39,049 bases of DNA from positions 1 through 39,049 of IMG/VR virus record IMGVR_UViG_3300037246_001116. One strand, 5' to 3'. The notes below the pieces were generated by a model that saw nothing but the letters and a program-made list of their open reading frames with translations, had not been told where the DNA came from and ran no database searches. Numbering within the stretch: the first letter of the stretch is position 1; every line of letters starts with the position of its first letter. The position numbers and the translations under genes are program-made. This stretch comes from a virus. This document shows positions 7,088 to 35,636 of this stretch, piece by piece.

Positions 7088-7918
7088 TTAAATATATGTT
7101 GTTTCGTCAAATCCATTTTCTAAACCTTTCCAATTTATAGCTACTGCATTGGATGTGTGTATTGATTCTTCATGTGTACACCTAACATGCCAATCGAGAA
7201 TCTTTTTCTGGAAATTCAATCTGTGGGATATCTCTCTAATCGAATCCTCAACAAACTGTGGGTAGCTTTTAGCCAATCCCGCGATGAATTTTTCATCACC
7301 CCTTTTAATGATGGGGTATGGAATCGTGTGAACAGCTTGTTCAACCAAATCAATAATATCTTCTAACCATAAATATGCTCTTAAATCTGTTTGAATTAAG
7401 ACATCTGCAAAAGCCCTTTGATTGTGTGGATACCCAAATTTCCCTTCGTGGCATAATGCTGCTGAACATGGACAGTAAGCAGCATATTGAACTCTCACGC
7501 TTTCATAAAATTTAAATTTATTATCTGAATAATCACTTATAAAACCGCATTTATAAAATTGTGGAAAATGATTATCTGAAATAGGAGACTTTTTGATAAT
7601 TGGAAATTTGAAGTCTATTTTTAAAAATACATTTTCCGTCTCAAGTTGTTTTTTGAAATCTTTTACTATCAACTCAAGTGTTGTTCGTTTGAGGGGTATG
7701 TTAATATATGTTTGTATAGTACGCGTGAATCTTGACATAGAAATACCCCTAGTCATATCATCCAAGCTACAAAACATCTCAGCTGTTGCTAATACTTGAG
7801 CGGGGGCTTGCTTCCCATCCCGAGACATGACTCGGAATGGGAGTTCAACCTTTGAAACACCAACTCTTTTAATGCTTGATTTGATTCGTGGCTTTGTTTG
7901 CTGAATATCAGGTAGCAT
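7088..7918 (-). CDS. folE2: GTP cyclohydrolase I type B (FolE2)
   Basis: FolE2 converts GTP to 7,8-dihydroneopterin triphosphate, the entry step for folates and for 7-deazaguanines (preQ0, queuosine, archaeosine-type bases). The 276-residue length fits the family. Visible signatures are VGVSKVELPF near the start, SRFTRTIQ (62-69), the active-site segment YCPCSAALC with C149, PHNQR with H165, and PQFVEDSIREI with E224. Cys, His and Glu at these places match the metal and catalytic residues of FolE2. The ATG at 7918 has AGGAG upstream and overlaps the end of the RNA polymerase beta gene by 11 bases. A QueD-like gene at 27774-28226 could take the product one step further. QueE, QueC and a base-exchange enzyme are not recognised in the window. 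Confidence 0.9.
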   Translation of the reverse strand: MLPDIQQTKPRIKSSIKRVGVSKVELPFRVMSRDGKQAPAQVLATAEMFCSLDDMTRGISMSRFTRTIQTYINIPLKRTTLELIVKDFKKQLETENVFLKIDFKFPIIKKSPISDNHFPQFYKCGFISDYSDNKFKFYESVRVQYAAYCPCSAALCHEGKFGYPHNQRAFADVLIQTDLRAYLWLEDIIDLVEQAVHTIPYPIIKRGDEKFIAGLAKSYPQFVEDSIREISHRLNFQKKILDWHVRCTHEESIHTSNAVAINWKGLENGFDETTYI

Positions 7919-10900
7919 TGTTTATACTCCTATGATCAACTCCCAAAACAGTTAGATAGGAGTTTAATAGTCGAACTGATTCTGGTATAGGATCTGTGAT
8001 ATTTGTTTCAATAATATTTTTTGGATCAATGAGATTTTTTATATAACTATTTTTTGTTTTGAAACAATCAGACTTTAATGTAAACATTTCGTGCAGATTT
8101 TTCATTGCATCATGTCCGATAAAACACGCTGTTTCCATTTCACCACATCTTTGTCCACCTTTATTTTTTCTTCCTCCCAGAGGCTGCATAGTCCGTTTTG
8201 CATAAGACCCTATTCCTCTAGCGGCCAGTTTGTCATCGGCTATATGTGTCATTCTAAAGAAATACATATATCCAACGGTTACTGGGTTTATTATATCCTT
8301 CTGTGATAGTGGATCATGAATATTATATTTGAACTGAGTTTTGGTATATTCCATAATTTCGTCCAAATCTGAAACATGAATACTTTCAAATGGTGGCTGA
8401 ATAACAGAAAAATCGTTAATGAATTCTTCATCTATCTCATCTGGTAGCTGTTCGATAAACTGTTCTGTATACCAATTATCTTTAGTTTTATCGACGAGCC
8501 TTATAAACTTTATGAAATAATCCTTTAACGAATCTTTATCTCCAGATTTAAATATATCCAATGCCTGTGTTTTTAAATCATTCACAGCCATCCCCAAATG
8601 TATTTCGTAAAGTTGACCCATATTCATACGAGAAATTATACCGAGAGGATTGATGCAAATATCTACATGTCGACCATCTGCTAACATTGGCATTTTTTCT
8701 TGTGGTAGAATTGATGAAATGACACCTTTGTTACCATGTCTATTTCCAACCTTATCTCCGACCTTTATAGTTTTCATTTGAAGGCCGTACATCTCAACAT
8801 GTATACCATCTATCTTTTCCTTTTTAATTTTATATTTGCCAACATTATCTAAATTGAGATTATCTTTTATAAAATCTGATGCGACATCTGCTGGTAATTT
8901 ATCCTCAACTATCTTCTGGAGTTTATATTGTTGATCTTTTTGTTTCTGCAAAAATTCTTCTATCCATTCTCTATAAATTGGAACCTCTTCATTCCATTCA
9001 TTTGCATAAATGGTAACATTGGTTATAATAACTCTCTTAGGAGTTTCCAACATAACTGATTCATTAAAAGGTGAAAAGTGATCATCAGTTGTTAGTTTTT
9101 GCATTTTTGCATATACATCTCCAGGTTCCATTAATGTATTGGGTGTTGGTAACGGTTCATATACATCATGACGACCAAGACGATCCAATAGGACTCTATC
9201 AGGTTTCATATTAAAAGATAAATCAACGAAATGCACAGATGAAAGTTCTTCACTGTTTGTCAATCTATCAGAAATCACAATTCCATCTTCATAATTATAA
9301 CCATAGTGAATCATAATTGCAGTTAGCAAATTCTTACCAAAAATGATGTCGCCATCTTTACAATAATTACTTTCTGCTAAAATATCTCCAGCTTTAAATT
9401 TTTCTCCTTCTTTAAAGTACGTCGACATGATATCTACATTCTGCACATATATTTTTCTATTCGAAATATCAAATACTTCACCAGTTTTATCACTATATAA
9501 GACAACCATATATTGCTCATTCAAATACAATACTTCACCATCTTTTGGTGCGATTTTTATAAAGTCTGTATATTTTGTATATAAATGTTCACAACCTGAT
9601 TGAATCATTGGTTTATCAAACTTCTTAAGAAGAATAGCTTGACGCATTTGAGATGACGCCATTTGAAGTCTGGTTGGATCATCGTTTTCACAAAATGGTG
9701 TAAATGAAACTGGTATAGAAATAGGCTGCTTGTCGCAGTATTCGTCCGTGAATCGCATATTTTCATCTAATGGGACGTTGGGTATCAGATTCTGTAAGAC
9801 ACCGCAATTCTCCCTATCAGGCGTATCTACAGGACATATTCTACCGAACATTGTTGGATAAATATCTCGTAGATGTCTTGGTATATTTTCGCGTTTAAAT
9901 CCACCTGGACCTAATAAGCTTGCGCGACTCAACTTGGTTAACTTATCTATTGGATTTATACTGAAATCAAATTGCACTATCTCAGATACGTTACTCTCCG
10001 AAATTAATTGTTTCGTGTTTGTGTTAAATTTTGGCTTTCTGGTTTCTCTATTACTCAAACACATATCAAAAATTATCTTACATATTTTACTATAGATAAC
10101 ATATTCAAAACAACGTATGCGTTTGTTTGGTAGTAATTTATCATCAACTTCTCCACGCTTTAGTGCAACTAACACATCCTCCAGAACTGAGTCAGTTTCC
10201 AAAAATTTCTTGGTAAATATATCCACTTTTGGTATCAACTCCAAAGAATATATAATATCATTCCCTTTTGGGATTGTATTATATTTTGTGTACATTCTTC
10301 CCAATTCTTTTATAAAGTCATCTTGGGTGAAGCCTTGTGATTCTTCTTGATACATTTTTATATCGAATAATAGTTTATCATAAATATTATTCTCTGGGAC
10401 GTCTTGTGATACTATACTCGCAAGATCATCTTTCAACATTTCTTTTAATTGTTCGGGGCCATAAAATGCCATTAGTAAAAGACAAAATGGAATTTTTTTC
10501 CCTAGATATCCACACATAACATATGGCTTTTCTTTTCTAAAGTAGACTAACATTGTACCTACATTAGTCCTCAATTTTAAAGTGTCCCCTCTCATAACTA
10601 TTGGTATATCGAAGAGTTGAAATAATGGGACTTTCTTTCTCCCATTTATAAACATATAGTTATTATCTATAAGTTTTGGTATGTAAAGTTTTAATTCGAT
10701 TTCAGATGAGCCCTTAGAAAACTTCATTAATAAAATCGAATACAAAGTTTTCGAGAGCTCACCCTTTATATTTCTCGAGCTTTTAATCTCAACTTTATCA
10801 ATCTCAAACCCTATTTCTCGAACAGGCTGAACTATTTCCTGTATGACAGGGAGCATACGCTCATAATCTTTTTTTCTCAACGTAAAAATGTTGTTGTCTT

Positions 10901-10937
10901 CATCCTTAATCTTGTAGTATGGGTTTACTATTTTCAA
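7908..10937 (-). CDS. rpoB-like: DNA-directed RNA polymerase beta subunit, phage-encoded, unsplit
   Basis: A 1009-residue beta-like subunit, shorter than the roughly 1340 residues of Escherichia coli RpoB. The bacterial core motifs appear in order: LLGPGGFKRE (341-350) and FGRICPVDTPDREN (364-377) in the fork/rifampicin region, FCENDDPTRLQMA (415-427), HYGYNYEDGIVISDRL (544-559), VGDKVGNRHGNKGVIS (726-741) with the two active-site lysines K729 and K737, and INPLGIISRMNMGQ (762-775). QPLGGRKNKGGQRCGEME lies near the C-terminus. The start codon is TTG 10937, with AGGAGG nine bases before it. It lies 27 bases after beta' in the same transcript. Unlike phiKZ-type phages, the subunit is not divided into several genes. 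Confidence 0.95.
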   Translation of the reverse strand: MKIVNPYYKIKDEDNNIFTLRKKDYERMLPVIQEIVQPVREIGFEIDKVEIKSSRNIKGELSKTLYSILLMKFSKGSSEIELKLYIPKLIDNNYMFINGRKKVPLFQLFDIPIVMRGDTLKLRTNVGTMLVYFRKEKPYVMCGYLGKKIPFCLLLMAFYGPEQLKEMLKDDLASIVSQDVPENNIYDKLLFDIKMYQEESQGFTQDDFIKELGRMYTKYNTIPKGNDIIYSLELIPKVDIFTKKFLETDSVLEDVLVALKRGEVDDKLLPNKRIRCFEYVIYSKICKIIFDMCLSNRETRKPKFNTNTKQLISESNVSEIVQFDFSINPIDKLTKLSRASLLGPGGFKRENIPRHLRDIYPTMFGRICPVDTPDRENCGVLQNLIPNVPLDENMRFTDEYCDKQPISIPVSFTPFCENDDPTRLQMASSQMRQAILLKKFDKPMIQSGCEHLYTKYTDFIKIAPKDGEVLYLNEQYMVVLYSDKTGEVFDISNRKIYVQNVDIMSTYFKEGEKFKAGDILAESNYCKDGDIIFGKNLLTAIMIHYGYNYEDGIVISDRLTNSEELSSVHFVDLSFNMKPDRVLLDRLGRHDVYEPLPTPNTLMEPGDVYAKMQKLTTDDHFSPFNESVMLETPKRVIITNVTIYANEWNEEVPIYREWIEEFLQKQKDQQYKLQKIVEDKLPADVASDFIKDNLNLDNVGKYKIKKEKIDGIHVEMYGLQMKTIKVGDKVGNRHGNKGVISSILPQEKMPMLADGRHVDICINPLGIISRMNMGQLYEIHLGMAVNDLKTQALDIFKSGDKDSLKDYFIKFIRLVDKTKDNWYTEQFIEQLPDEIDEEFINDFSVIQPPFESIHVSDLDEIMEYTKTQFKYNIHDPLSQKDIINPVTVGYMYFFRMTHIADDKLAARGIGSYAKRTMQPLGGRKNKGGQRCGEMETACFIGHDAMKNLHEMFTLKSDCFKTKNSYIKNLIDPKNIIETNITDPIPESVRLLNSYLTVLGVDHRSINNAT

Positions 10938-10964: not shown

Positions 10965-13631
10965 TTATACTTTTTCTCCTCTTAAAATTCTGTCCATAAC
11001 ACCAGAATAATTGCCAGAGTTGATTATTCCTTTTAAAATGCTTTTTCGTGGATTCGAAAAAGACATTGCTAACATCCAACTCTCTTGATCTGGAACTGAT
11101 TGAATACTATGAAATTTTGCTTTATATTTTTTTCTATCTGGATGCAATCTCCATTTTTTCATTCCAATCCACATGAGTTGTGAGACGATACATTCATAAT
11201 GAACATGATGAATATATCTATCATATACATCAAACAACGAACCGACCAACTCTTCACATTTAGTATCTTTAAATTTGTGAAGCATTGTGGACACAGTAGA
11301 AAGATCTCCAATGATATCTTCTTGTTTCATATCTTTCTTTTCCGAACTGTTTTTTATGATTGCTGATCCTGACGTATGGAATGTTCTTAGAACCAATTGA
11401 GTCGATTTTTCTCCTACAGTCTGAGCGGCAATAACGCCGATATAATGACTATTCAGAGTTTTATAAGATTCACCATAACATGTTTTACAAACTTTTTCAC
11501 TTTTACAGAATATTGGACTTCGTATATAAACTGTTGTGCCAATAATGTTGGTATAATTATCGTGTGTTATTAACCTCAGTTGATCATCATCTTTCGCAAA
11601 ACGATAGACAAGGGACTTACCCTTTTTATCATCTTTAACTTCAACTTTAAGAAAGTCTGTTGTGCCACAATCTTCTGTCGTTTCTGATAACTGTAAGTTT
11701 GCACATGTGAATATCAGTTTTCTAGATAGATAACCTGATGTCCCCGTATTAAGAGCGGTGTCCAATAACCCCTTTCTACAACCATACGTTGAGTTGAAGA
11801 ATTCGGATTGAGTTAGACCATCAGTTAAATTATTTACAATAGGTTTGTCGAGAATTTCTCCACTAAAATTTGATATATAACCACGAGATAAGCATAACTG
11901 TCTTGCTTGATCCCAACTTCCACGAGCACCAGATTCTATAAAATCTGCATATTTAAAATTCTCTCTCAGAAATTCCAACACTTCTTCTGAACTAGATCTT
12001 CTTAGAGACTCATAAATATCACCATCAGTGTCATATATTTTATGTTTGAGTTCTTCGACATTTGGAATTAAAAAGTCGTCCAATGATAATGTACAACCAG
12101 ATAACGTTGAATAATAAAATCCATATTTCTTTATTAAATCTAAAATCCCAACGATATCATCTGGATAATCTTTCTGTATTTGTTGTAGTGTATTTATAAG
12201 AACTCTTTCACCAACAACACCGTCGACTCTATCAAAACCATCTGGTAATAATGAATTAAAAAAGTCAATACCATTAAATTCATCGGTATCAAACTTTCCA
12301 CATGTTAAGTAATATATACCCAATACAATATCTTGATTTGGTATAGTGGTTAACTCACCGTTAGCTGGACTGATTAAATTTTTAGTGACAAACATTTTTT
12401 CTCTAACTTCTTCTGTAGTTTCTTCTGATAGTGGAACATACACAGCCATCTGGTCGCCATCAAAATCAGCATTAAATGGATGACATATAAGTGGATGAAC
12501 TTTAATAACAGAATCTTTAGAAACTTTTATATTAAAACCCAACATACCCAAACGATGTAACGATGGTTGCCTGTTGAGTATACATACCTTACCTTTAACT
12601 TCGTCTTCACAAATATTCATTAATTTCAAATGGTTATATTTGATACATTTATTTATGAAGTTTAGAGCTGTTGGCAGTTTCTTAAAACGGCCTAATCCTA
12701 TAATTCTTTTGGCTATCTGTAGCTTGAATATTTCCAATACCATTTTATATGGCAGTACACATTCATCTAAGGATAGCGATGGTTCTGGAACAATGACAGC
12801 TCTTCCTGAGAAGTCTATTCTTTTTCCTAGAATATTTCCTCGTATTAACCCTTCTTTTTTTGCAAGTTTTTCTAATATTTTTTCGTGTAACTCTTTGACA
12901 TCTTTTTGTAAGTTTCTGAAAAAGGTATAGTATATACTTTTATCTCTAATTGCGTCCAGATGAGATGCTTGCATAACTTCCTTTTTAGTTAAAATTTGTA
13001 AGTAATATCTATTAATTTTGTCCATCAATTGTTTTGAACCACTTTGCGTTGATGGTCGCAAATCTGGAGGCAAGACGATAATTTCACGAATTAAAAAGTT
13101 ATCTATATTTTCAACTATCTTTCTCCAGTTTTCATCCTCTAAATCTTCATACTTCATTTCACTAAAGTTTTTAACGAGGATGTATATAGCTTCCGAGCGT
13201 TCATATTTAGTTGCTGCTTTTGGAATTTTTGTGTCATCATGCACAATAAATGTTTCGTCTTCAATGATATATAAAATACTCTTTTCATTTTTCATAAGAT
13301 TATCAAGTGGGGATTTTATAGCTTTACCACCTAATGAAACAATAAGATCATACATCAAAGGATTGACAACTGGAATTGGTAATACAATTTTTGCAAAGCG
13401 TTTTCTTCTTTCATTACTGTTGACAATATCAACGCCGCAATCCTTACACTGACCACCAGATTTTGATATCCCATAATATGTTCCACATTGACATGTATAA
13501 TTTTTCAGTGGTCCGAATATCTGCTCTGAAAAAAGACCTTCGGCATGAAAAAATTTCTTTTTAAATACTTTGATCGATGTTATTGGTGCTAAATTTTCAC
13601 AAAATTTATTATAATCTAAAATGTTAGGCAT
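10965..13631 (-). CDS. rpoC-like: DNA-directed RNA polymerase beta' subunit, phage-encoded, unsplit
   Basis: An 888-residue catalytic subunit. The N-terminal zinc site is bacterial in spacing (C47, C49, C62, C65), followed by LGKRIDFSGRAVIVPEPSL (268-286), NRQPSLHRLGM (353-363) and the absolutely conserved NADFDGDQMA (387-396) that binds catalytic Mg2+ through D389, D391 and D393. The bridge helix region (ESGARGSWDQ, 566-575) and trigger loop (KGLLDTALNTGTSGYLSRKL, 620-639) are present, as is a second zinc cluster (C655, C709, C715, C718) and GVIAAQTVGEKSTQ. The C-terminal SFSNPRKSILKGIINSGNYSG matches the bacterial end, but the protein stops soon after. ATG 13631 overlaps the E2-like gene by eight bases, with GGGGAGG inside that gene. 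Confidence 0.96.
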   Translation of the reverse strand: MPNILDYNKFCENLAPITSIKVFKKKFFHAEGLFSEQIFGPLKNYTCQCGTYYGISKSGGQCKDCGVDIVNSNERRKRFAKIVLPIPVVNPLMYDLIVSLGGKAIKSPLDNLMKNEKSILYIIEDETFIVHDDTKIPKAATKYERSEAIYILVKNFSEMKYEDLEDENWRKIVENIDNFLIREIIVLPPDLRPSTQSGSKQLMDKINRYYLQILTKKEVMQASHLDAIRDKSIYYTFFRNLQKDVKELHEKILEKLAKKEGLIRGNILGKRIDFSGRAVIVPEPSLSLDECVLPYKMVLEIFKLQIAKRIIGLGRFKKLPTALNFINKCIKYNHLKLMNICEDEVKGKVCILNRQPSLHRLGMLGFNIKVSKDSVIKVHPLICHPFNADFDGDQMAVYVPLSEETTEEVREKMFVTKNLISPANGELTTIPNQDIVLGIYYLTCGKFDTDEFNGIDFFNSLLPDGFDRVDGVVGERVLINTLQQIQKDYPDDIVGILDLIKKYGFYYSTLSGCTLSLDDFLIPNVEELKHKIYDTDGDIYESLRRSSSEEVLEFLRENFKYADFIESGARGSWDQARQLCLSRGYISNFSGEILDKPIVNNLTDGLTQSEFFNSTYGCRKGLLDTALNTGTSGYLSRKLIFTCANLQLSETTEDCGTTDFLKVEVKDDKKGKSLVYRFAKDDDQLRLITHDNYTNIIGTTVYIRSPIFCKSEKVCKTCYGESYKTLNSHYIGVIAAQTVGEKSTQLVLRTFHTSGSAIIKNSSEKKDMKQEDIIGDLSTVSTMLHKFKDTKCEELVGSLFDVYDRYIHHVHYECIVSQLMWIGMKKWRLHPDRKKYKAKFHSIQSVPDQESWMLAMSFSNPRKSILKGIINSGNYSGVMDRILRGEKV

Positions 13632-14058
13632 ACATTATTACCTCCCCGATTTTTCTGACATTTGTTGGTGGATCGAAACAGTCGTTATCAGTATATTTTA
13701 ATAAACAAGCCATCAGTAAAGTAATAAGACTATGACAGATTTTCACGCCTTCAAGTTTTCCAAGACAAAACAAATTATTTCTCGGGTCTTTATTAGGATG
13801 AAGTTGTTTATATAAACATACATATTTTAATCTTCCTTCTCTATCCGCAGTTAGTTCTAATTGTGTTATCAAGTATTTATCATCCAATTCTACCATTTCA
13901 ACTGTATTACAAACATGTTTATAGATTGGTTTAATTGAACACTTAAGACGATATATAAATGTCTGAATTGCTCTATAATCTATATTCTCCCAGGACTTAT
14001 CGTATTTAATCCATCCATGGGAAGATGTTAAGTGAAGATCATTTAAAATATCTATCAT
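13624..14058 (-). CDS. E2-like ubiquitin-conjugating enzyme homologue (candidate)
   Basis: A 144-residue protein from ATG 14058 (MIDILNDLHL). The second half has E2 landmarks in the right order: a strand (KYVCLYKQ), HPN at 87-89, the putative catalytic cysteine C98 in LFCLG, a hydrophobic helix (CHSLITLLMACLLKY) and DPP at 129-131. In ubiquitin E2s the cysteine shortly after HPN forms the thioester, and prokaryotic E2-like proteins (for example PRTRC protein B) keep a similar arrangement. The upstream gene stops in TAATG, sharing a base with this start, and GGGGGTG provides a ribosome site. The frame also opens ten codons earlier (to 14088) without a clear ribosome site. Overall similarity is low, so this is a motif-and-context call. 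Confidence 0.65.
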   Translation of the reverse strand: MIDILNDLHLTSSHGWIKYDKSWENIDYRAIQTFIYRLKCSIKPIYKHVCNTVEMVELDDKYLITQLELTADREGRLKYVCLYKQLHPNKDPRNNLFCLGKLEGVKICHSLITLLMACLLKYTDNDCFDPPTNVRKIGEVIMYA

Positions 14059-14870
14059 TAAGCACCCCCAGATAAAAATGGGTTGCAAATTTCTATATAT
14101 CTATATGTATGATCTATCATATATGTGCCGCCTTGTCGTAACACAACATCATTTAAAAGATTAATGACCTGTGAATAAGACATGATCTGTGGTTCACAAA
14201 ATGCTATACCTTGAAAATCATCAACCTTACATAACTTCGTTTTAACATGACCTCGACTATTACTTATACTTTTTATTTCTTCTTGTAGGTGCAAACCCAT
14301 ATCTCTTTTTTCTTCTGGATAATTTGCTTGCTTAACCAGAAAATCTATTTCCTTAATAAGAGATTTAGTTGATAACGGAATATTGACAGACATTTTCTTC
14401 TTTTGAAGACTAGATATCCCACCCGACAACAATGATACAGCTGCCAGACGCCCCGCTTGAGAAACATCATCTTTCCCAAGATCTATCATATAATCACCTT
14501 CTATATCATCATCTTCAACCAGCTCACTACAATTAATTTGAAGATTTTTACCAACCACCATAAATTTTGAATCACTTTTTATATTTTTATTCACTACATC
14601 TCTACAATCTATAAGATGATTAAATTTCAGTGATTCAACTTCTCTAATGTCATCTTGTACGGGTACATAATCGCATTCAGTTATATGCTGTTTAAGTGCC
14701 ATAACTTTTGGTTTATCTATATCTGTTTTGTTGTAGAGAGAATTTCTAAGATTCCTTTCCTCTACAGTATCTGGGTCAACACCATATATTTTATCCGCAA
14801 ATCGCTGCATACTTTTAGCTATGTATCCACCTAGTGAACCGACCCCAACAATACCAATTGTGTTTACCAT
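14058..14870 (-). CDS. Second E1/ThiF-like Rossmann-fold protein
   Basis: A 270-residue protein with the E1 superfamily nucleotide-binding start IGIVGVGSLGG (5-15), then YGVDPDTVEERNLRNSLYNK (29-48), equivalent to the E1 D-x-D-x-VE-x-x-NL-x-R segment, and DIDKPKVMALKQHI (50-63), equivalent to the stretch with the ATP-contacting lysine. The later D-N-x-x-x-R motif of active E1s is altered to IDCRD (87-91), and no conserved catalytic-cysteine context is clear. The C-terminus is SGGA. It could be an activating enzyme for a different carrier, an E1 partner subunit, or an inactive adaptor. AAAGGGGAA lies upstream of ATG 14870. It is separated from the Ubl gene by a 75-base gap with a hairpin, and its stop is fused to the E2-like start. 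Confidence 0.75.
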   Translation of the reverse strand: MVNTIGIVGVGSLGGYIAKSMQRFADKIYGVDPDTVEERNLRNSLYNKTDIDKPKVMALKQHITECDYVPVQDDIREVESLKFNHLIDCRDVVNKNIKSDSKFMVVGKNLQINCSELVEDDDIEGDYMIDLGKDDVSQAGRLAAVSLLSGGISSLQKKKMSVNIPLSTKSLIKEIDFLVKQANYPEEKRDMGLHLQEEIKSISNSRGHVKTKLCKVDDFQGIAFCEPQIMSYSQVINLLNDVVLRQGGTYMIDHTYRYIEICNPFLSGGA

Positions 14871-14907
14871 TTACATAAATTCCCCTTTCGTTTAAAATTA
14901 GAATTGT

Positions 14908-14927
14908 GTGGGGGCTAATGCCCCCAC
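14908..14927 (-). terminator. Strong hairpin after the Ubl gene
   Basis: An eight-base-pair perfect stem (GTGGGGGC with GCCCCCAC) and a four-base loop. It begins 18 bases after the Ubl gene stop on the minus strand. There is no immediate T-run; the following sequence is ACAATTCTAATTTT. It may be a weak terminator, an attenuator or a 3'-end stabilising or processing hairpin between the first and second halves of the conjugation cassette. Confidence 0.5.
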
Positions 14928-14945
14928 TGTTATTGTCAATACTGA

Positions 14946-15593
14946 TTACCCTTTGTCGTATGCCTCGTTAACAAACTCGATGACATCATCTTCTAAAATG
15001 ATATAATCATTGGTTACTTCTTCTCCATTCACCAATACGATACGAGCGTAAGGATTAACGTTGAGGACCTGACCAAGCATTTTTTCAACTTCATAAATGG
15101 TCTTTCCTACAACAGGATAATTATTCGACATACTACCCGATGAGATTGTTACAGTAATGTTTGATACATTAGGACCATTTGAAATCATTCCACTAAAAAT
15201 TACATGGCTGATATCCGTATCTAACACTTTACTTTCTGTCTTAGACGGATTTCCCATGGCTTCTGCCATACCATTTGGAAAGCTGGTTCTGTCTCCATCA
15301 TCAGGATCTGTCCAATCATCAGGATTGTCGTCGTCGACCTCGGCACCAAAACCATCGACATCACCAATATCTTCAATATCATCAAAGACAGTTTCGTCAG
15401 AAGCATCATCGAAAGAAGCTTCACCAGTGGACATAAAGTAATTCCACAGAGCTTGAATCAAAAATGGCTTTTGTTTCTTGCTCATTCCTACGAATTCGGG
15501 ATTTTCTTGACCAAGACCTACAACCAATCCTCGCATAGTCTCGACGTTCATTTCATTCAATTCAGTCCAAGTGTATTTTTTGTTTGTATTCAT
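14946..15593 (-). CDS. Ubiquitin-like protein: helical N-terminal domain, acidic linker, C-terminal beta-grasp domain
   Basis: A 215-residue protein from ATG 15593, chosen because AAAGGAG lies ten bases upstream; the frame remains open 16 codons further. Residues 8-55 form a small helical domain (LNEMNVETMRGLVVGLG, then KQKPFLIQALWNYF), similar in look to SAP/HeH folds. Residues 62-102 are very acidic and probably disordered. Residues 143-215 have the ThiS/MoaD/Ubl pattern: strand ITVTISSGS, helix TIYEVEKMLGQVL, strand ARIVLVNGEEV, then DYIILEDDVIEFV. The chain ends DKG, so the C-terminal glycine is already exposed. Its position directly after JAB and ThiF genes supports a protein modifier or sulfur carrier. 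Conjugation is inferred from the neighbouring E1-, E2- and JAB-like genes. Confidence 0.78.
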   Translation of the reverse strand: MNTNKKYTWTELNEMNVETMRGLVVGLGQENPEFVGMSKKQKPFLIQALWNYFMSTGEASFDDASDETVFDDIEDIGDVDGFGAEVDDDNPDDWTDPDDGDRTSFPNGMAEAMGNPSKTESKVLDTDISHVIFSGMISNGPNVSNITVTISSGSMSNNYPVVGKTIYEVEKMLGQVLNVNPYARIVLVNGEEVTNDYIILEDDVIEFVNEAYDKG

Positions 15594-15597
15594 GTGG

Positions 15598-16344
15598 TTA
15601 ATTCTCCTTTTGAATTTTTGGTTTTCTGATTTTTGAATCACACTTCATTGTGGTTATATCAAAGTAGGCTTCGCCTATTTGATTATTTATATTGATGGTT
15701 CCTGTAAGCAAATTGTAGTATGAACAACACATAAGTATAGCGACCATAGCATTTGTAAATATCAGCTGGGGAGCTGACTCGGTCATTTCGTCACACGATA
15801 ATTCGTATGGCGCTTTATCTCGGGGATTTTCAATTTCTGGATGATATGCACATAAGTCAGATGTGATTTCTTCACCATCTTTTTTATAATATGTCTGTAC
15901 ATTACCAACCGTAATATCATTTCCTCCTGAAATTAATATAATATCATCTAATTTTTGACAATATTTTGAAACGATTGATCTCGTCTTATGATTATCAACA
16001 CCCATAAAAACGGTATCACCACTCGAGATCAGTAATTCAATATTATCTTCTGAGACGTATTGATCCTTATATTCCAGGGCAAAATTTTCTAGTGTATACC
16101 CAGGCGGTATATATTTATCATACTCATCTTTCAACTCTAACATTGTTATCCTAGCTTTATTTCCGAGATTTTTAAAATTTTGTCTCGGTCTATTTAAAGA
16201 ATCATAAGCATCACCGTCAATGAGAGTTATAGTTATCTTTTTATTTTCCAACATTGTAAATCTGGCGTATTTAGTTATAAATAAAACTAACCAGGATCCA
16301 ATACCTCCAAGACCAACTATTTTTATGTTAATTTCATTCTTCAT
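15598..16344 (-). CDS. ThiF/E1-like ubiquitin-activating enzyme
   Basis: A 248-residue adenylating enzyme. Motifs in order: KIVGLGGIGSWL (8-19) for ATP binding, LIDGDAYDSLNRPRQNF (41-57), which corresponds to the E1 segment ending in N-x-x-RQ, and GVDNHKTR (115-122), equivalent to the DN-x-x-x-R motif with the Mg2+-binding aspartate D117. C184 in ELSCDEMTESAPQLIFTNAM is a candidate catalytic cysteine; its context resembles the C-x-x-E segment I recall for PRTRC ThiF proteins. It should adenylate the C-terminal glycine of the neighbouring Ubl. The ATG at 16344 overlaps the JAB gene end by 11 bases, and the Ubl start follows five bases after its stop, so the three are one translational unit. 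Confidence 0.88.
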   Translation of the reverse strand: MKNEINIKIVGLGGIGSWLVLFITKYARFTMLENKKITITLIDGDAYDSLNRPRQNFKNLGNKARITMLELKDEYDKYIPPGYTLENFALEYKDQYVSEDNIELLISSGDTVFMGVDNHKTRSIVSKYCQKLDDIILISGGNDITVGNVQTYYKKDGEEITSDLCAYHPEIENPRDKAPYELSCDEMTESAPQLIFTNAMVAILMCCSYYNLLTGTININNQIGEAYFDITTMKCDSKIRKPKIQKEN

Positions 16345-17641
16345 GATTTGTCAAAACTCCTTCTTTTGCTCTTTTCTCTCTGAGAAAATCTGCAGCGGTA
16401 TAAGTGTTTCCGTCATGTTTTTTTTCACAACTCGGACACGCATTTACCATTTCTGGGTTTTCAATAAAGAATGTTGATCCACAATCATCGCATTTGATAG
16501 ATTTTTTTAATTTTGCGTTTTTTACTGATTCGAATTCATGTATTGGAATGGAGTTATCATGTCTTTTAATTCCATCTTCATCAATTTCTCCAGAATGAAA
16601 TAATGGAGTTGAATCTCTTTCGAAAAATATTTTATCCTGTTCAGTGAAAGACATATCAAAATTATCATCGGGTGTAATGTCATCAGGACCACAGAGATCA
16701 TTAGTAACATCATTATTAAGCATACCATCCACAGAAAGAGGATTATCGGCGGTATTATAAACATCATCATCGAACACAATATCATCCAATAAGCTACTTA
16801 CCTTTACTTCTTTAAATATACATTCTTCACATACAGTTTTTGGTATTTCGGAGTCATCTACTTTATCTAATAATCGGTTAGTTTTAAACCATTCATCCCA
16901 CTCTTTTGTATGAGTCGATGGTGCTGTTGGTGGTGTTCCTCGCATATAATTTGCTGGAGTCACAAATTTTAAATTTTCTTCATCAGAAACAATTGTACCA
17001 TGATCCAATATTTTATAAAATTTAGTTGTAGTTTGTAAAAACCTTGTTTCGGTTGCATTTTCAATTCCTTCAATATAATCACATGGATCGACGGGTACTC
17101 TTTTATCGTTAATTACGATACATGCTGCAATTGAAACTTCATCTAGATTGATGTGACCAACTGTTATATGTAACCCATCAAAATATCTCTCATCTTTTTC
17201 ATCTGTAGTGGAATGAAATGCTCCAAAATCAGAATGACAATGTATTGTGCCACAATTGATGTATGAAGGATCCACAACAATATTATACTTACATCTTGAA
17301 TTACTTACCGTCTGATGTGGAATTGTGTAATCTATTTTTTTGAGTTTTGGATTTGTCGGGTGTGTTTTTAAATTGAGAATAACACCAGATTCACTATGAT
17401 ATTCCCCAAACGCTAGTTTGAAAAATCCAACAATTTTACCGAATACTTTTGCTTTAATCTTCGGTAATTTCATCCTTGCAAATTCAGGTAATTCTTCACC
17501 CATATTTATATGAGAAACTTTAATCATAGCATCAATTAAACCACTTTTCTTTTTTAAATATATATGTTTTGACACAATATAACAAGCATCATCTTCAGGT
17601 AATTTATCAGGCATTTTTTCAAAATAATAAACTGGTAACAT
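16334..17641 (-). CDS. JAB/JAMM metalloprotease (deubiquitinase-like) with C-terminal zinc ribbon
   Basis: A 435-residue protein. The JAMM signature is perfect: H134-C-H136, then S144 and D147 (IHCHSDFGAFHSTTD), with a glutamate in EYHSESGVIL (80-89) as the likely catalytic acid. This family removes Ub/Ubl proteins from isopeptide bonds or trims their C-termini. Since the neighbouring Ubl already ends in glycine, removal rather than maturation is the more likely job. Residues about 270-370 form a long acidic linker (for example FDDDVYNTADN). The C-terminus has a zinc ribbon with C384, C387, C402 and C405, perhaps for substrate or Ubl binding. Start ATG 17641 has AAAGG upstream. It is the first gene of the cassette, after a hairpin. 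Confidence 0.88.
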   Translation of the reverse strand: MLPVYYFEKMPDKLPEDDACYIVSKHIYLKKKSGLIDAMIKVSHINMGEELPEFARMKLPKIKAKVFGKIVGFFKLAFGEYHSESGVILNLKTHPTNPKLKKIDYTIPHQTVSNSRCKYNIVVDPSYINCGTIHCHSDFGAFHSTTDEKDERYFDGLHITVGHINLDEVSIAACIVINDKRVPVDPCDYIEGIENATETRFLQTTTKFYKILDHGTIVSDEENLKFVTPANYMRGTPPTAPSTHTKEWDEWFKTNRLLDKVDDSEIPKTVCEECIFKEVKVSSLLDDIVFDDDVYNTADNPLSVDGMLNNDVTNDLCGPDDITPDDNFDMSFTEQDKIFFERDSTPLFHSGEIDEDGIKRHDNSIPIHEFESVKNAKLKKSIKCDDCGSTFFIENPEMVNACPSCEKKHDGNTYTAADFLREKRAKEGVLTNHEE

Positions 17642-17688: not shown

Positions 17689-20600
17689 TTAATTTTCTTC
17701 TTCCTGTTTAGGGAACACATTATCACTAGTTATTGCATATGATGGTATATCTAATTTTTTCCTGGCTATCATGTTATTCATATGTGTATGGGAAAAAAAG
17801 TTATTTTGAGGTCCAAGATAATTAAAAAACTTAAATGATTCTTTTTCTCTTGTTGATTTTTTAAGTATTCTTGGGGTTGGAAATGTTAGCAATGATGCGA
17901 CTAACATGTCACTCCTGACCCAATCATGTGATTTTTGATATGGACTATTATAATATGAATATGTGTGTAATGGGCCATATAGACCCGACTTCATATCTAA
18001 ATATGCCGATCCATTTTTTAATGAGCTGTTAGTCAAACTATAACACATATCATAATAACGTGTTCTAGGTCTTTTAATATCAACATTTATATTATCATAT
18101 TTTAAACCTAATGATACATTAGAATCATATACAGTTCTAAAGGAACTAAACTGACTATCAGCTACCACTGTCTGTATCATAAATTTATTAAAACCAGAAA
18201 ATGTATATAGGGTACCATTTTCCACCATACCTTCATATGAAGTTTTATCTATATTTGAAGTGTGTAATCGTCTATCATTAGTTATATGATTTACAAAATC
18301 ATTCCTCGTTTCTCTTGGATTTTCCACCATTCCAATTGTTATTTCATCTTCTGTTAATAATGGTGTTTTAATTTGAGATAAAATCGAGTCTCCATATATT
18401 ACCATAAAATCATCTTTCATTTCTGATGTGAATAGTCTGGTTTTTCCAGTATAAAATCGGATCTTAGCAGCAGTTAATTTATTGAGTTTGAATATCTTGA
18501 ATCTATCTAAAATAATATCGGCCCACATTGTATAACCACTTTTCATAATAGCCAGATCTCTGTTGTTAAATTTTATACAACACACCACTTCATCAACAGC
18601 ATTTTTTGGAAAATGCGGCATTCCTCCAATGTCAGCTTTTATGAAATCACCAGCTTCTAAATTATTAACTTCTTTGATAGCATGAGACATGCTATTTAAG
18701 CAATGTTGTCCACAGCTTGATATCATCGGTTGGAAGATAAGATCCTCGCTACCATCATCTACAACTGCATATAATGTTGCCACTTCCCCTCTAATAGCAC
18801 TATGAGGAATATCGCTGTGCATATTTTGTTGTATATTAGTGTTTGAAACTTTATCATGAGAATAAATTTTAGCTTGATCATTACGGATTTCACGATCACT
18901 ACTGTTAGGTGATAAAGTGGATAATAAACGTGAGTCAGGATATTTATCTACAACAGTTACAAAATCATATATTTTTTTAATGCTTGGGAGTTTGTTAGTG
19001 TTAGAATCCCAGTCGGACGTCAACATTATTTCGTCACCAACTTTAAAGTTAATATATTCTTTATCAGTCCCTGTTTCATATAAATCTCTTATGGTAAATA
19101 TTTTTACATCATCAACTTCTGATATACAAGATTTTAGATGATGGGCAGCTGGATAGAAAAACATTAGATCCCTCGGATATGCTTTTATTTCCTGCGTTGA
19201 TAATGAAGCATTATTCCCCTCACGCATAATTTTAAATGGAACTTCCGTGTCAGTTTCACTTCTAGGTATAGCCTGATAAACTGTTTGACCTACAATAACT
19301 GTTTCAGAACCATTTATTGTTGGTACGGTTACTTCAATTTCATTATTTTCAGATTGCATTCCTATAATATACCTTGGTAAAGGAATAAGTAATTGATATA
19401 TATCATTTTCCATGTCTTCAAATGGAATTAAATCTTCTATATTTAATGTAATTTCATTCGAATCAGAATCCGATGGAGTAAATTTATAATTCACGGTTAG
19501 TACATCTGTATTCATATTCGAATAATGATGCTTTTTGGGTTCCATAGTTATTTTTTGTACTTTGGCTGATCCTGTTATAATCTCACTTAAATGATCAAAA
19601 ATATTATATGGAGATGGCGCATCTTTTGTTTTAATTAATTCTCTACGTCTAAAAGAAAATGGGGAATTATTCTTTATATTGAAGATATTATCTTCATCAT
19701 CAGTTTTATTTTTAGTAGAAAATGTGAACATCAAATCAACTTTTCTAATATGTGGGTCCTCATGATTTTTCTCGATATGTAATGTTCCCTCATTACTTAA
19801 TTCAAATACATAAAAACCTTCGTTCTCACGAATAGATTTTATTATATCATATTTACTGTTATCTTCACTTTTAATATCTGTGATAATTATATCGCCAATA
19901 TTAAAACTTTTTCCCCCAAGTATAGCATTTTCTATATAATTTTTAGCTTTTCTATAACTGGATACCACAAAGGCAATACCTTTATCAGTTAATGGAATTC
20001 GGTGTATTTTTTTATTTGTGTCTTTTATTTGTACGTGTGTTATAGTAGAATCCTTTTCGATAAGGACAGATTCATTAACCTCATAAGTTTTTAGTCCATC
20101 AAACGAAATAATTTTAAACTTTTTATCCTTTTCTGTCTTAGTTTTTAATAGTGACCCAATTAGTATTTTATGTCCTTCGAGATGAATTGTATCTGAGATT
20201 CCCGTAGAATGTTTTTGAGCGACACCATCATTTAAATCAATAACTGAATCCCCATATTTGTCTTTACCAGTAAAACCATCGGCTATACTGTGAGCATTTA
20301 TTGTGTGTATTGGTTCATTGAAGTTTTTTGAGTCCTTTTTTCTTACCCCTTGATTATATATAAATGAAGCAACTGACATACGGTGTTCTAGTATAGAGTT
20401 TTCATTGAGTGTTAATGTAAATATTTTCTCTGGATTAACATATGAATTAAACTCCCATTCAAACCAGTTCCCCAGAAAATTTACATTCCCATACGTTTCT
20501 GGACCAGCTGTAATATCTGCATTAAATCTGTTATTCCAAAAGTAACCAGTCATTTTTTCAACATATTTTTTGATATTAATAAGACCGTAATTTCCAAGTG

Positions 20601-21309
20601 TCATCTTTCCAGTACAGACACTACCACCATAACTTACATTTGATAATGGGAATTGATATAAATAATCGGTGAATGTGTTAACTGGTTCTAAAGAGATTGC
20701 TGCTTTCATTTTAGAAATAGTTGTTTCCTCTACTCCACGACGACCCCGCGTACGCATAATCTCTATCAAGATATATGTATATGGAAAATAAACTCTAAAA
20801 TTTAATTTGTAATGCTCCTTTTTTACATTTGTTATTATTTGTTTTTCTACACTCTTTATATATTGAGTTCTCAAATTTATTTGCTTTTGAACTTCTTCTT
20901 TTTGCTCAGGAAGAACTTCATTCTTTTCAAGTACCCCAGTTTGAGCATTAAATTTATTATACATTTTTGCAACAAGAGACATAACGGCAGTCTTATTTGA
21001 AAGCCTGAAGGTTCTCACTCCAGGTATTTCTTGCATCAAAAAAGCATCTTTTGTAGAATCTACTTTTGTTGTATAAATGCAACCAGTTGGTAATAACATA
21101 GTTGCGTTCCGAGATAAAATCTCAGTGTTAATGTTGCTGAATATATCATTAAAAGATTTTCTAATGACAGATTTGGGCCCGTCTACATCTTCTTCTGAGT
21201 ATGCCATTGTTGCGATATCACTTTTAAAATTCAAAACAATTGATTGCGGATAAATATCGTCAACATCAAACGAATTATCACCAGTAACACCGATAGTATT
21301 TTCAGACAT
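17689..21309 (-). CDS. Unrecognised large protein, 1206 residues
   Basis: No family recognised. The start ATG 21309 (MSENTIGVTGDNSFDVDDIY) has AAAGGA nine bases upstream; the frame is open 22 codons further but without a ribosome site. The protein looks soluble and mainly beta/mixed, with no membrane spans. Landmarks include an early Lys/Glu-rich helix near residues 140-185, a Trp/Phe/Tyr/Asn-rich segment (GYFWNNRFNADITAGPETYG, about residues 265-285), several small beta-barrel-like repeats with the theme GDIIITDIKSED, KVGDEIMLTSDWDSN and LEAGDFIKADIGG, and an aromatic C-terminal region. Neither Walker nor metal-protease motifs are visible. It directly precedes the JAB-E1-Ubl genes, separated only by a hairpin. 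It could be a virion protein, a modification target or a scaffold; none is proven. Confidence 0.85.
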   Translation of the reverse strand: MSENTIGVTGDNSFDVDDIYPQSIVLNFKSDIATMAYSEEDVDGPKSVIRKSFNDIFSNINTEILSRNATMLLPTGCIYTTKVDSTKDAFLMQEIPGVRTFRLSNKTAVMSLVAKMYNKFNAQTGVLEKNEVLPEQKEEVQKQINLRTQYIKSVEKQIITNVKKEHYKLNFRVYFPYTYILIEIMRTRGRRGVEETTISKMKAAISLEPVNTFTDYLYQFPLSNVSYGGSVCTGKMTLGNYGLINIKKYVEKMTGYFWNNRFNADITAGPETYGNVNFLGNWFEWEFNSYVNPEKIFTLTLNENSILEHRMSVASFIYNQGVRKKDSKNFNEPIHTINAHSIADGFTGKDKYGDSVIDLNDGVAQKHSTGISDTIHLEGHKILIGSLLKTKTEKDKKFKIISFDGLKTYEVNESVLIEKDSTITHVQIKDTNKKIHRIPLTDKGIAFVVSSYRKAKNYIENAILGGKSFNIGDIIITDIKSEDNSKYDIIKSIRENEGFYVFELSNEGTLHIEKNHEDPHIRKVDLMFTFSTKNKTDDEDNIFNIKNNSPFSFRRRELIKTKDAPSPYNIFDHLSEIITGSAKVQKITMEPKKHHYSNMNTDVLTVNYKFTPSDSDSNEITLNIEDLIPFEDMENDIYQLLIPLPRYIIGMQSENNEIEVTVPTINGSETVIVGQTVYQAIPRSETDTEVPFKIMREGNNASLSTQEIKAYPRDLMFFYPAAHHLKSCISEVDDVKIFTIRDLYETGTDKEYINFKVGDEIMLTSDWDSNTNKLPSIKKIYDFVTVVDKYPDSRLLSTLSPNSSDREIRNDQAKIYSHDKVSNTNIQQNMHSDIPHSAIRGEVATLYAVVDDGSEDLIFQPMISSCGQHCLNSMSHAIKEVNNLEAGDFIKADIGGMPHFPKNAVDEVVCCIKFNNRDLAIMKSGYTMWADIILDRFKIFKLNKLTAAKIRFYTGKTRLFTSEMKDDFMVIYGDSILSQIKTPLLTEDEITIGMVENPRETRNDFVNHITNDRRLHTSNIDKTSYEGMVENGTLYTFSGFNKFMIQTVVADSQFSSFRTVYDSNVSLGLKYDNINVDIKRPRTRYYDMCYSLTNSSLKNGSAYLDMKSGLYGPLHTYSYYNSPYQKSHDWVRSDMLVASLLTFPTPRILKKSTREKESFKFFNYLGPQNNFFSHTHMNNMIARKKLDIPSYAITSDNVFPKQEEEN

Positions 21310-21325
21310 TTCTTTTTCCTTTATA

Positions 21326-21748
21326 TTAAAGGTTTTTTGTTTCTTTACCAAGATAAGCTTTATATACCTTGGCAAACCCTGTTACGATATGATTTGGTTT
21401 CGTTGATTCAATTATATGGCGATTTTTCATTTTAAATGTTCCAGTTGCGCCAAAATCAACATAATAACAAACTGACCACCCATCCAAAGGATCCCTTTCC
21501 AAAGCAATATAACACACTTCTTTTTGACTTTTTTGATAGGGAACTGGAAGTATAAGATACATATTAGCTCCACTTATAATTTCTGATTCTATTATATCAA
21601 GAGATACTGTATCCATTTTCTTCATTTCTTGATCTTGGATTCTATTACATAATTCAGCTATTATAATATCATCATCATCTTCAGCCCTTATAGTTGGGTC
21701 AGCTTTTATTTCTTCGATTACTTTTTGTAGGATTGTTGATCCATTCAT
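21326..21748 (-). CDS. Unknown small protein, 140 residues
   Basis: Not recognised. The N-terminal half is helical and acidic (AEDDDDIIIAELCNRIQDQE, about 22-41), followed by a strand-rich half with LILPVPYQKSQKEVCYIALE and a short WSVCYYVDFGATGTFKMKN segment. No catalytic motif. The ATG at 21748 shares a base with the upstream stop (TAATG), so it is translationally coupled to the DUF2693-like gene. The 1206-residue gene starts 17 bases after its stop. Confidence 0.75.
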   Translation of the reverse strand: MNGSTILQKVIEEIKADPTIRAEDDDDIIIAELCNRIQDQEMKKMDTVSLDIIESEIISGANMYLILPVPYQKSQKEVCYIALERDPLDGWSVCYYVDFGATGTFKMKNRHIIESTKPNHIVTGFAKVYKAYLGKETKNL

Positions 21749-34413: not shown

Positions 34414-34424
34414 GATCATCCTTT

Positions 34425-35636
34425 TTAAGATTCAGGTTTTCTCAGTTTCTCGAAAAACTTTTGTTGAAAAATTGGTGACTTATATAATTCTTTCATCAAC
34501 TTTGTAGTATATTTAAATTCTTTGCTTGTTCTATCAATATCAGATTGTATTATTAATAACGAAGCTGTATCTACAGGCATTGTTATTAAGAAGTCATGGA
34601 TATTTTTAATTTCAGCAGCCATTAAAGCTGGCATTGTATTTTGTAAATATGTTGTAAATGATGTCATTAAATCTCCAAGCTTTGAATTATCATTTGCATG
34701 GAGCATCTTTTCAATTATTGGTTTTGCCTTTTCTTGATAGTTCTTAATGATGTCGTCAGGTTTAACGACCTGTGTATTATCTCTACAAAACCCAATGAAC
34801 ATCATTGCAGCTGATGAATTTAGAAGTCCTGAAATTCTGGTTTCAAGATTCATTATATTATAATTTCCTTCAGTTGAGATTTCTGCTTTCCATAATATAT
34901 CTGAAACTTTTTCCCATGTAGCTGGATTAGAATATACAGAACCAACTTTTTGTGAACGAAAATCATATACTCTATCATGAAAAGTATTAATATAATCTAA
35001 AACGAACGGATGAAAATCCATCTTCGTTCCATATTTTAGAAATGCTGCTGCTGAGACTTCAATGTATATATGTGATTGTCGACGGAGACCAGCGGCGTCT
35101 TCTAAAGTGTTCATTGAATATTCTTGTTCGTCTGGATTGTCTATAGATATTACAAACCAACCTTTTGGAAATTCATATCTATGAACACAATATTCATTTT
35201 GAACTTGCCATAATAATTGTTGTAGTGGGTGATCACCGCGAGCGAATTCATCAATAACGTAGATTCCATATTTATTGGATGGTTGTGGTACAAAATCTGA
35301 ATATAACATTCTAAATTGACTTGTATTTTCGATTTTGTCTGTAACGATAGGGAAAGGAACTAGAAAATCATCTCGAGTTAAAACTGGACTTGTTATTCGA
35401 ATCAGATCAAATTCCTTTCCTGTTGTCTGAGTTAATTCCTTTTGGAGTTGGTAACATATTTGCGTTTTACCAACTCCAGCTGGACCGATAATATGATAAC
35501 ATTGTTTCTGAACGTTTCTTCCTGCCTCCCACGTTTTCAATGTTGAAGTTATGTCATCATTAAGATCTTCTTTTACCTTATCAATTGTTGTTACACTGAT
35601 ATTTAACTTTTCAAAATATTTAACTTCGTTTGGCAT
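34425..35636 (-). CDS. MoxR-type AAA+ ATPase
   Basis: A 403-residue AAA+ ATPase: Walker A GPAGVGKT (51-58), Walker B IYVIDE (125-130), a sensor-1 region with FVISIDNPDEQEYSMNTLED and an arginine-rich GLRRQSH. The second half is helical and ends in a basic KLRKPES. MoxR ATPases pair with VWA proteins, and here the VWA gene follows within about 11 bases. In bacteria such pairs insert metals, remodel complexes or act in stress and phage-defence systems. The substrate in this phage is unknown. ATG 35636 has AGGAG upstream, overlapping the stop of the candidate ssDNA-binding gene. Confidence 0.85.
   Translation of the reverse strand: MPNEVKYFEKLNISVTTIDKVKEDLNDDITSTLKTWEAGRNVQKQCYHIIGPAGVGKTQICYQLQKELTQTTGKEFDLIRITSPVLTRDDFLVPFPIVTDKIENTSQFRMLYSDFVPQPSNKYGIYVIDEFARGDHPLQQLLWQVQNEYCVHRYEFPKGWFVISIDNPDEQEYSMNTLEDAAGLRRQSHIYIEVSAAAFLKYGTKMDFHPFVLDYINTFHDRVYDFRSQKVGSVYSNPATWEKVSDILWKAEISTEGNYNIMNLETRISGLLNSSAAMMFIGFCRDNTQVVKPDDIIKNYQEKAKPIIEKMLHANDNSKLGDLMTSFTTYLQNTMPALMAAEIKNIHDFLITMPVDTASLLIIQSDIDRTSKEFKYTTKLMKELYKSPIFQQKFFEKLRKPES

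Follow-up and report, generated by a model that had tools for sequence, protein, structure and literature searches.

A predicted ubiquitin-like conjugation cascade encoded beside the RNA polymerase genes of large tailed phages

In bacteria, the conjugation of ubiquitin-like (Ubl) proteins is known chiefly as a form of anti-phage defence. Among the closest described systems, the operons of type 6d (Iyer, Burroughs and Aravind 2006; PMC1779556), which appear to correspond to the TIGRFAM PRTRC proteins A, B, C and ThiF, encode, in separate genes, a JAB peptidase, an E1-like enzyme, an E2-like protein that lacks the usual His but has a conserved Cys and a conserved His further downstream, and a small Ubl that ends in Gly. 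The BilABCD system (Chambers 2024; Hor 2024; PMC11354881) also combines a Ubl, an E1, an E2 and a JAB, and in its E1, BilD, an inactive adenylation domain is fused to an active one (PMC11354881). Type II cyclic oligonucleotide-based antiphage signalling systems (CBASS) employ E1, E2 and JAB chemistry in Cap2 and Cap3, and lambda-type tail assembly involves a phage-encoded Ubl and JAB (TAPI/TAPK, Ubl plus JAB/NlpC; PMC1779556). Here we analysed a virus record of 39,049 bases from IMG/VR (IMGVR_UViG_3300037246_001116, hereafter the window) and found that one of its operons encodes the parts of such a pathway next to the genes of a phage RNA polymerase (RNAP). With a probability of roughly three in four, we consider this locus a complete Ubl conjugation and deconjugation cascade, with conjugation predicted, that forms a core module in a clade of large, mostly uncultured tailed phages with their own multi-subunit RNAP. 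Our search of the open-access literature found no description of such a phage cassette (the initial annotation of this DNA had remarked that a full set within a large phage's transcription operon looks new), and the main text of a review of 224 jumbo phages (PMC7824862) mentions no Ubl, JAB, E1-like, E2-like or ThiF proteins.

The genes are transcribed from the minus strand in the order given here, with the two domains of the Ubl placed under its gene:

17689 to 21375, minus strand: large protein of 1228 residues (the E2_D protein) with an N-terminal E2-like domain of the Prok-E2_D/PRTRC_B type (Pfam PF14460; conserved Cys254 and Asn246)
16334 to 17641, minus strand: JAB/JAMM metalloprotease of 435 residues with an HxHx7SxxD motif and a zinc-ribbon-like CxxC region at the C-terminus, predicted to mature and remove the Ubl
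15598 to 16344, minus strand: ThiF-1, E1-like enzyme of 248 residues, predicted to be active, catalytic Cys184 (Pfam ThiF and conserved residues)
14946 to 15593, minus strand: Ubl modifier of 215 residues with a Rho_N-like domain, an acidic linker and a ubiquitin fold with a K-G end (AlphaFold 2 model, PDB matches)
15423 to 15593, minus strand: Rho_N-like three-helix domain of the Ubl, residues 1-57 (AlphaFold 2 helices; PF07498 in homologues)
14949 to 15170, minus strand: ubiquitin-fold domain of the Ubl, residues 142-215, the C-terminal 74 residues (VIA, Foldseek)
14058 to 14870, minus strand: ThiF-2, E1-like protein of 270 residues without the E1 Arg and Gln, predicted pseudo-E1 partner (Pfam ThiF)
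13624 to 14058, minus strand: HPN-type E2-like protein of 144 residues, catalytic Cys98 (AlphaFold 2, VIA, motif)
10965 to 13631, minus strand: phage RNAP beta' subunit (PHROG RNAP families, 8.8e-37)
7908 to 10937, minus strand: phage RNAP beta subunit (PHROG RNAP beta, 2.3e-48), which adjoins beta' in 59 contigs

All five co-oriented genes from the JAB to the E2-like protein lie where the initial annotation had placed them, and its five parts are confirmed; the cassette is larger than proposed there, since the E2_D gene at 17689-21375 belongs to it as well. The overlapping ends it described are present between JAB and ThiF-1, between ThiF-2 and the E2-like gene (1 nucleotide (nt), TAATG) and between the latter and RNAP beta' (8 nt), whereas gaps of 4 nt and 75 nt separate ThiF-1 from the Ubl and the Ubl from ThiF-2. 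The placement within a phage transcription operon also holds, with RNAP beta' and beta directly downstream and a terminase in the window (1365-3125), which further encodes gyrase B, an SMC-like ATPase, a helicase and a multi-subunit RNAP. Since 8 of 10 related contigs likewise carry a terminase, the cassette sits in a phage.

The cassette would work in the manner of bacterial Ubl operons. Its core is related to the bacterial 6d/PRTRC type, as the initial annotation had suggested for its parts, yet distinct from it. The PRTRC_B, PRTRC_A and PRTRC_ThiF models match the E2_D, JAB and ThiF proteins of distant phage versions. For the ThiF model (TIGR03736) the E-value was 0.0013 in the window and 7.7e-31 in Bacillus phage vB_BauM_KLEB27-3, every scanned protein falling below the 144.75-bit cut-off, and for PRTRC_A it was 0.012 in the window and 1.8e-21 in Salmonella phage Arash, all below the curated cut-off. 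As in those operons, a JAB with a full JAMM motif adjoins the E1. The downstream His of the E2_D domain, however, is absent from the window (RFNADIT) and most of the family; the Ubl, despite its fold and KG end, has an extra Rho_N domain and no PRTRC_C match (this model weakly matches a Ubl-repeat protein of KLEB27-3); and PRTRC ParB (TIGR03734) gave no match above cut-off in 10 genomes or records, and none at all in three RNAP-linked contigs (L032, L044 and L064), which are possibly partial. We therefore do not class the cassette as PRTRC. Relative to 6d/PRTRC it adds the Rho_N domain on the Ubl, a predicted pseudo-E1, a second E2 of HPN type and the RNAP linkage, and its E2_D domain, which has no downstream His (the window reads FNAD), is part of a large fusion protein. 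Inactive and active adenylation units are shared with Bil but stand on separate proteins, beside two E2s and in a phage; the Ubl pairs a single ubiquitin fold with Rho_N, where that of Bil has two ubiquitin folds, so that neither the fused E1 nor the two-domain Ubl of Bil was found in the window. Compared with type II CBASS, to which PADLOC E1-E2 matches are weak, E1 and E2 are unfused, the cassette has its own Ubl, and a CD-NTase was not found among 10 flanking proteins scanned with Pfam. The lambda TAPI/TAPK locus, for which no E1 or E2 is reported, differs in being a tail rather than an RNAP locus.

Scans with Pfam, NCBIfam and PHROG-type profiles gave no significant match for the JAB, Ubl or E2-like protein of the window on their own, and we therefore collected relatives, cited here by L-numbers (L002, L003, L004 and so on). 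A single-protein scan with the JAB found no viral relative; an RNAP scan, followed by profile scans, did. The RNAP scan yielded three close relatives (L003 and L004 being near-identical), and L004 holds the whole cassette in the same order. From the ThiF-1 profile scan the best 80 of 138 loci were taken. With iterated profiles, the order E2_D protein, JAB, ThiF-1, Ubl, extra genes, ThiF-2, E2-like protein was found repeated in more than 50 contigs, and related cassettes are present in more than 60 other phage contigs. Because this order is kept so widely, and the catalytic residues are kept in 50-80 diverse homologues, neither the motifs nor the arrangement are due to chance.

The JAB carries the exact JAMM motif claimed for it: HCHSDFGAFHSTTD in the window fits H-x-H-x7-S-x2-D, the motif is kept in 81 of 82 homologues (the exception being a truncated sequence), and Prok-JAB scores above or near its cut-off in homologues. 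ThiF-1 matches Pfam ThiF at 1.6e-13, with ThiF-type models scoring best, and has GxGGxG, DGD, N51/R54/Q55, K63, D117 and C184. All eight of the residues D43, D45, N51, R54, Q55, K63, D117 and C184 are kept in 73/73 homologues, which bears out the description of an E1 with all adenylation motifs and a C184. The Ubl of the window ends in YDKG, a single Gly rather than Gly-Gly, and K214 and G215 are invariant in the family alignment (A8). Its C-terminal domain matched SUMO and ubiquitin with a Foldseek probability of 1.00, and VIA gave Z-scores of 8.0-8.7 against TtuB (the best, 8.7), ubiquitin, ISG15 and MoaD, with root-mean-square deviations (rmsd) of 1.5-3.8 Å over 61-81 residues. Many Ubl homologues give ThiS/TGS/Ub-Mut7C matches, and the weak family matches include ThiS and moaD_arch. 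AlphaFold modelling and PDB comparison thus agree with a beta-grasp protein ending in glycine, and structure prediction, which had been proposed as a check, returned a beta-grasp fold with a flexible tail for 14946-15593 and, by AlphaFold 2 and VIA, an E2 fold for 13624-14058.

A K-G pair stands at or near the end of nearly all members of the Ubl family, while an outlying group (L016-L023) ends in T-G-G plus 2-3 residues. Nothing follows the K-G in 55 members, a Cys follows in 19, and other tails reach 66 residues (L067); about a third of the Ubls have a tail. One contig fuses the Rho_N-Ubl and ThiF-2 in a single reading frame of 409 residues (L072:8715-9944). Tails and fusion imply a need for a processing peptidase, which fits the JAB. 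The N-terminal Rho_N-like domain of the window's Ubl, of a kind present in the transcription factor Rho, is modelled as helices 9-14, 17-30 and 42-56 (predicted local distance difference test (pLDDT) score 79-97, AlphaFold 2), with Rho chains among its structural matches. Rho_N (PF07498) was found in 32 of 46 Ubl homologues, at best at 3.4e-15; the window's own copy is under the Pfam threshold, yet it aligns with the other copies and is predicted to form three helices.

Some relatives carry more than one Ubl unit. In cultured phage KLEB27-3, gp199 (L006:3718-4425) consists of four near-identical Ubl repeats of 57 residues head to tail, each ending in AGVKG, plus a single tail MPRIVVK, and lies near E2_D gp196, JAB gp195 and ThiF gp194. 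Near-identical repeats plus a tail liken it to eukaryotic polyubiquitin genes; the 57-residue repeats, the KG end and the phage carrier differ, and the likeness is one of repeat layout. In Vibrio phage D69, gp307 (L193:2286-3077) has three Ubl repeats in one protein, each ending in TGTKG, and lies near E2_D gp304, JAB gp303 and ThiF gp301. A second Rho_N-Ubl gene lies upstream of the E2_D gene in L221, L233, L239 and L270, so that some phages may have two Ubl modifiers.

The protein encoded at 13624-14058 was modelled from 48 sequences with a pLDDT of 91.7 (AlphaFold 2). All 50 VIA matches listed were E2 or UEV proteins, the best being UBE2L6 (Z 6.9, rmsd 4.0, 112 residues), and in the sole PDB sequence match of the family profile (E=0.17) HPN and Cys line up with their counterparts in an E2. 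P44, H87 and C98 are kept in 48/48 sequences, N89 in 44/48 and the P of HPN in 47/48. Both a UBC fold and an HPN with a nearby catalytic Cys, the marks of the E2 superfamily, are therefore found. The HPN-x8-C98 spacing in the window compares with HPN-x7-C in canonical E2s. The motif HPN...FCLG...DPP of the initial annotation is thus partly upheld: HPN and the Cys are there in the window, but only the second P of DPP is well kept. Nor is HPN invariant, since the closest relatives (L002, L003/L004, L008) have HPH and the N is kept in 44/48 of the family.

Judged from its sequence, a second E2, of PRTRC/6d type, is encoded by the separate gene at 17689-21375, outside the set named previously. Its Prok-E2_D domain spans residues 238-287 (window 20515-20664; PF14460, E=0.0042, with homologues down to 3e-11). 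Cys254 is kept in 66/66 sequences and Asn246 in 98% of the family, and the ortholog in L004 is 41% identical.

ThiF-2 matches Pfam ThiF at 4.2e-8 and retains GxGxxG, DxD, K55 and D88-C-R-D91, which agrees with the description of a second E1-like protein. Positions 43/44, where the N-L-x-R-Q motif has Arg and Gln, are mostly N/S across 53 homologues, neither R nor Q occurring among the residues listed. Because this E1 Arg and Gln are missing, ThiF-2 is probably an inactive pseudo-E1 partner and not a second active E1. By analogy with NAE1-UBA3 and BilD, ThiF-1 and ThiF-2 may together make up a split E1, with ThiF-2 as its pseudo-E1 half. A GG(A) at the C-terminus of ThiF-2 was considered as a second Ubl tail and is unlikely to be one: in the window its codons resemble the Shine-Dalgarno sequence of the overlapping E2 gene, GGGGGTGCTTAATG. 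Among eleven ThiF-2 relatives without the E2 overlap, four have lost the GG(A) and seven have kept it (mostly with gaps of 0-5 nt).

The cassette is closely tied to the phage RNAP. In the first set, ThiF-2 is present in all 59 contigs that have RNAP, and wherever the E2-like gene occurs, RNAP beta' and beta lie immediately downstream of it; the two also follow the cassette in every relative in which ThiF-2 occurs together with the Ubl or the E2-like protein in a full cassette. Most contigs of this set were found through ThiF-1 or other cassette proteins and three through RNAP, so the link is not a search artefact. The ThiF-2 profile also matched nine proteins in contigs lacking RNAP (L016-L024), which are short, E1-like and from another group of phages. 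In the ThiF-1-based set, Rho_N is present on 56/56 complete RNAP-linked Ubls, as well as on the Ubl-ThiF-2 fusion, and on 0/28 Ubls from contigs without RNAP. Conversely, of the 66 RNAP loci for which 5 kb or more of upstream sequence is available, 55 have the cassette (56 if a fusion in L267 is included), and beside more distant RNAPs (38-42% identity) the E1-like and E2-like neighbours are still present and the JAB mostly so. Pairwise divergence of RNAP beta' (51-100% identity) correlates with that of each cassette gene (Mantel r 0.54-0.81, 0/2000 permutations), the contigs being non-independent observations through shared descent. This correlation speaks for vertical inheritance as a core module rather than pick-up as cargo, and the sequences indicate that Rho_N-Ubl, ThiF-2, HPN-type E2, RNAP beta' and beta are one inherited package.

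The core of E2_D protein, JAB, ThiF-1 and Ubl also occurs in large phages without nearby RNAP (L078, and L080-L104 except L082 and L088) and in many contigs of metagenome-assembled genomes (MAGs) of Methylomirabilota, Chloroflexi, candidate phyla radiation (CPR) and others; two MAG contigs with the RNAP-linked version (L105, L130) may be phage contigs within bins. The trio of E2_D, JAB and ThiF is found in KLEB27-3, Arash and D69. Searches of isolated phages with the central-family Ubl and with the HPN-type E2 gave no match, and the HPN-type E2 was not found in seven core-only contigs, in a search whose genomes included no positive control. Matches to a "BIG" profile downstream in L084-L104 were left unused, as the two tested proteins had no Pfam match and the matches may reflect model drift. 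A ThiF match in Acinetobacter phage MD-2021a was rejected as a bacterial MoeB beside host metabolic genes; this INPHARED record (CAKLQH020000004.1, L194) resembles a bacterial chromosomal contig (acsA, kdpA/B, folB). The Chloroflexi MAGs MGR_bin130 and SKS1.bin7 have ThiF-1 relatives on five (L147, L152, L156, L160, L168) and four (L154, L159, L163, L169) separate contigs, most of which carry the core cassette, suggesting multicopy systems.

Taken as a pathway, the motifs and the tails of relatives suggest that the JAB would trim Ubls carrying residues past the terminal K-G, the window's own copy needing no trimming. ThiF-1, whose motifs are all in place, would adenylate the terminal Gly and take up the Ubl on Cys184; it may do so in a heterodimer with the catalytically degenerate ThiF-2, in the manner of NAE1-UBA3 or the BilD halves. 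The Ubl would then pass to Cys98 of the HPN-type E2, to Cys254 of the E2_D protein or to both, under some division of labour, and on to a target, from which the JAB could take it off again. The Rho_N-like domain on the tag and the package beside the phage RNAP genes point to transcription as the likeliest target; as a tentative guess from context, the tag would go to the phage's transcription apparatus or to proteins that work alongside it, the alternatives being host proteins, virion proteins and competitor phages. Together with conservation as a core module, these two features favour a transcription-linked role over accessory defence or counter-defence. A bolder version, somewhat unlikely in our estimate, is that these phages modify their own RNAP or transcription complexes during infection through a Rho_N-tagged Ubl, two E2 types and a pseudo-E1/E1 pair, as an ancestral viral counterpart of eukaryotic ubiquitin control of transcription, inherited vertically with the polymerase.

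Several observations weigh against a complete and transcription-linked cascade. Foldseek alone found nothing significant in the PDB for the E2-like model (best E 0.48), so that the E2 call rests on the motif and on a VIA Z of 6.9, short of the 8 that the tool sets as its caution line. For E2_D, the window's match scores 17.3 bits against a Pfam cut-off of 25, and ThiF-2 could have lost its Arg and Gln for some other reason. Two RNAP relatives (L244, L258) have no cassette gene, and L243 (8397-9655) keeps ThiF-2 and the HPN-type E2 beside RNAP with JAB, ThiF-1 and Ubl undetected, so the cassette is not strictly essential. L248 has the core beside RNAP without ThiF-2, and its Ubl is unmatched by the Rho_N profile. 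Linkage to RNAP can also arise because the genes belong to the same early operon, without their having a target in common.

Host takeover or counter-defence, in which host proteins such as host RNAP receive the tag, or Ubl-based host defence is disarmed by the JAB together with a decoy Ubl, is an unlikely explanation. The cassette components would be enough for it, and counter-measures by a JAB alone have been proposed for Borgs (PMC12660748); but a JAB alone would then do, a full writer with two E2s being unneeded, and ThiF-2 and the E2 track the phage's own RNAP. That the phage instead carries a defence or superinfection exclusion system, in which a competing phage has its virion or replication proteins tagged as phage tails are by Bil, strikes us as improbable. 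Bil, Bub and type II CBASS do tie conjugation to defence (PMC12687455, PMC13373217), and the E1 proteins weakly resemble the PADLOC E1-E2 models, but vertical co-inheritance with RNAP and a fixed place in its operon are unlike mosaic defence islands, and neither a CD-NTase nor an effector was found among the flanking genes scanned. Quite improbable is a sulfur-carrier pathway, in which the Ubl would donate sulfur for the modification of tRNA or cofactors as ThiS, MoaD and TtuB do, with ThiF-1 as adenylyltransferase, the JAB as processing enzyme and the E2-like proteins as scaffolds. TtuB is indeed the top structural match of the Ubl, with MoaD close, ThiS and moaD_arch appear among the weak family matches, and ThiF-1 scores best with ThiF-type models; against this, the matches to ubiquitin, ISG15 and SUMO are about as good as that to MoaD, two E2-fold proteins with an invariant Cys (in one of them H is also invariant, and P and N nearly so) would have no role, and no rhodanese, thiolase or cysteine desulfurase was found among the window genes scanned with Pfam and NCBIfam. 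Very improbable is a set without conjugating activity, whose proteins would serve the phage RNAP as structural subunits or in its assembly and would retain their catalytic residues to bind metals or nucleotides. The 8-nt overlap of the E2-like gene with rpoC and the Rho_N on the Ubl would suit it; against it stand the joint conservation of full E1 (R, Q, K, D, Cys), E2 (HP-C) and JAMM motifs and the occurrence of the core in other phages and in MAG contigs where no RNAP gene is near.

If conjugation of the Ubl by this predicted cascade is borne out, phages themselves would possess both writer and eraser in full, as a core module that adjoins the RNAP operon and is conserved over lineages whose polymerase subunits drop to 51% identity. 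The Rho_N domain on the tag and the co-occurrence with RNAP offer a concrete, testable tie between Ubl modification and viral transcription, and the cultured phages KLEB27-3 and D69, with simpler versions including a polyubiquitin-like precursor, make experiments feasible now.

Three further features concern the surroundings of the cassette. In many relatives, two small genes for products of about 180 and 81 residues (L039:9222-9740, L065:9785-10030) lie between the Ubl and ThiF-2; they are not in the window, and the copies tested had no Pfam match. At 32857-35636 the window encodes a DUF2201 metallopeptidase/VWA protein beside an AAA ATPase, perhaps a MoxR/VWA-like pair. A second RNAP beta-like piece lies at the window's edge (38298-39047; E=1.2e-23 to the window's beta), suggesting more RNAP genes.

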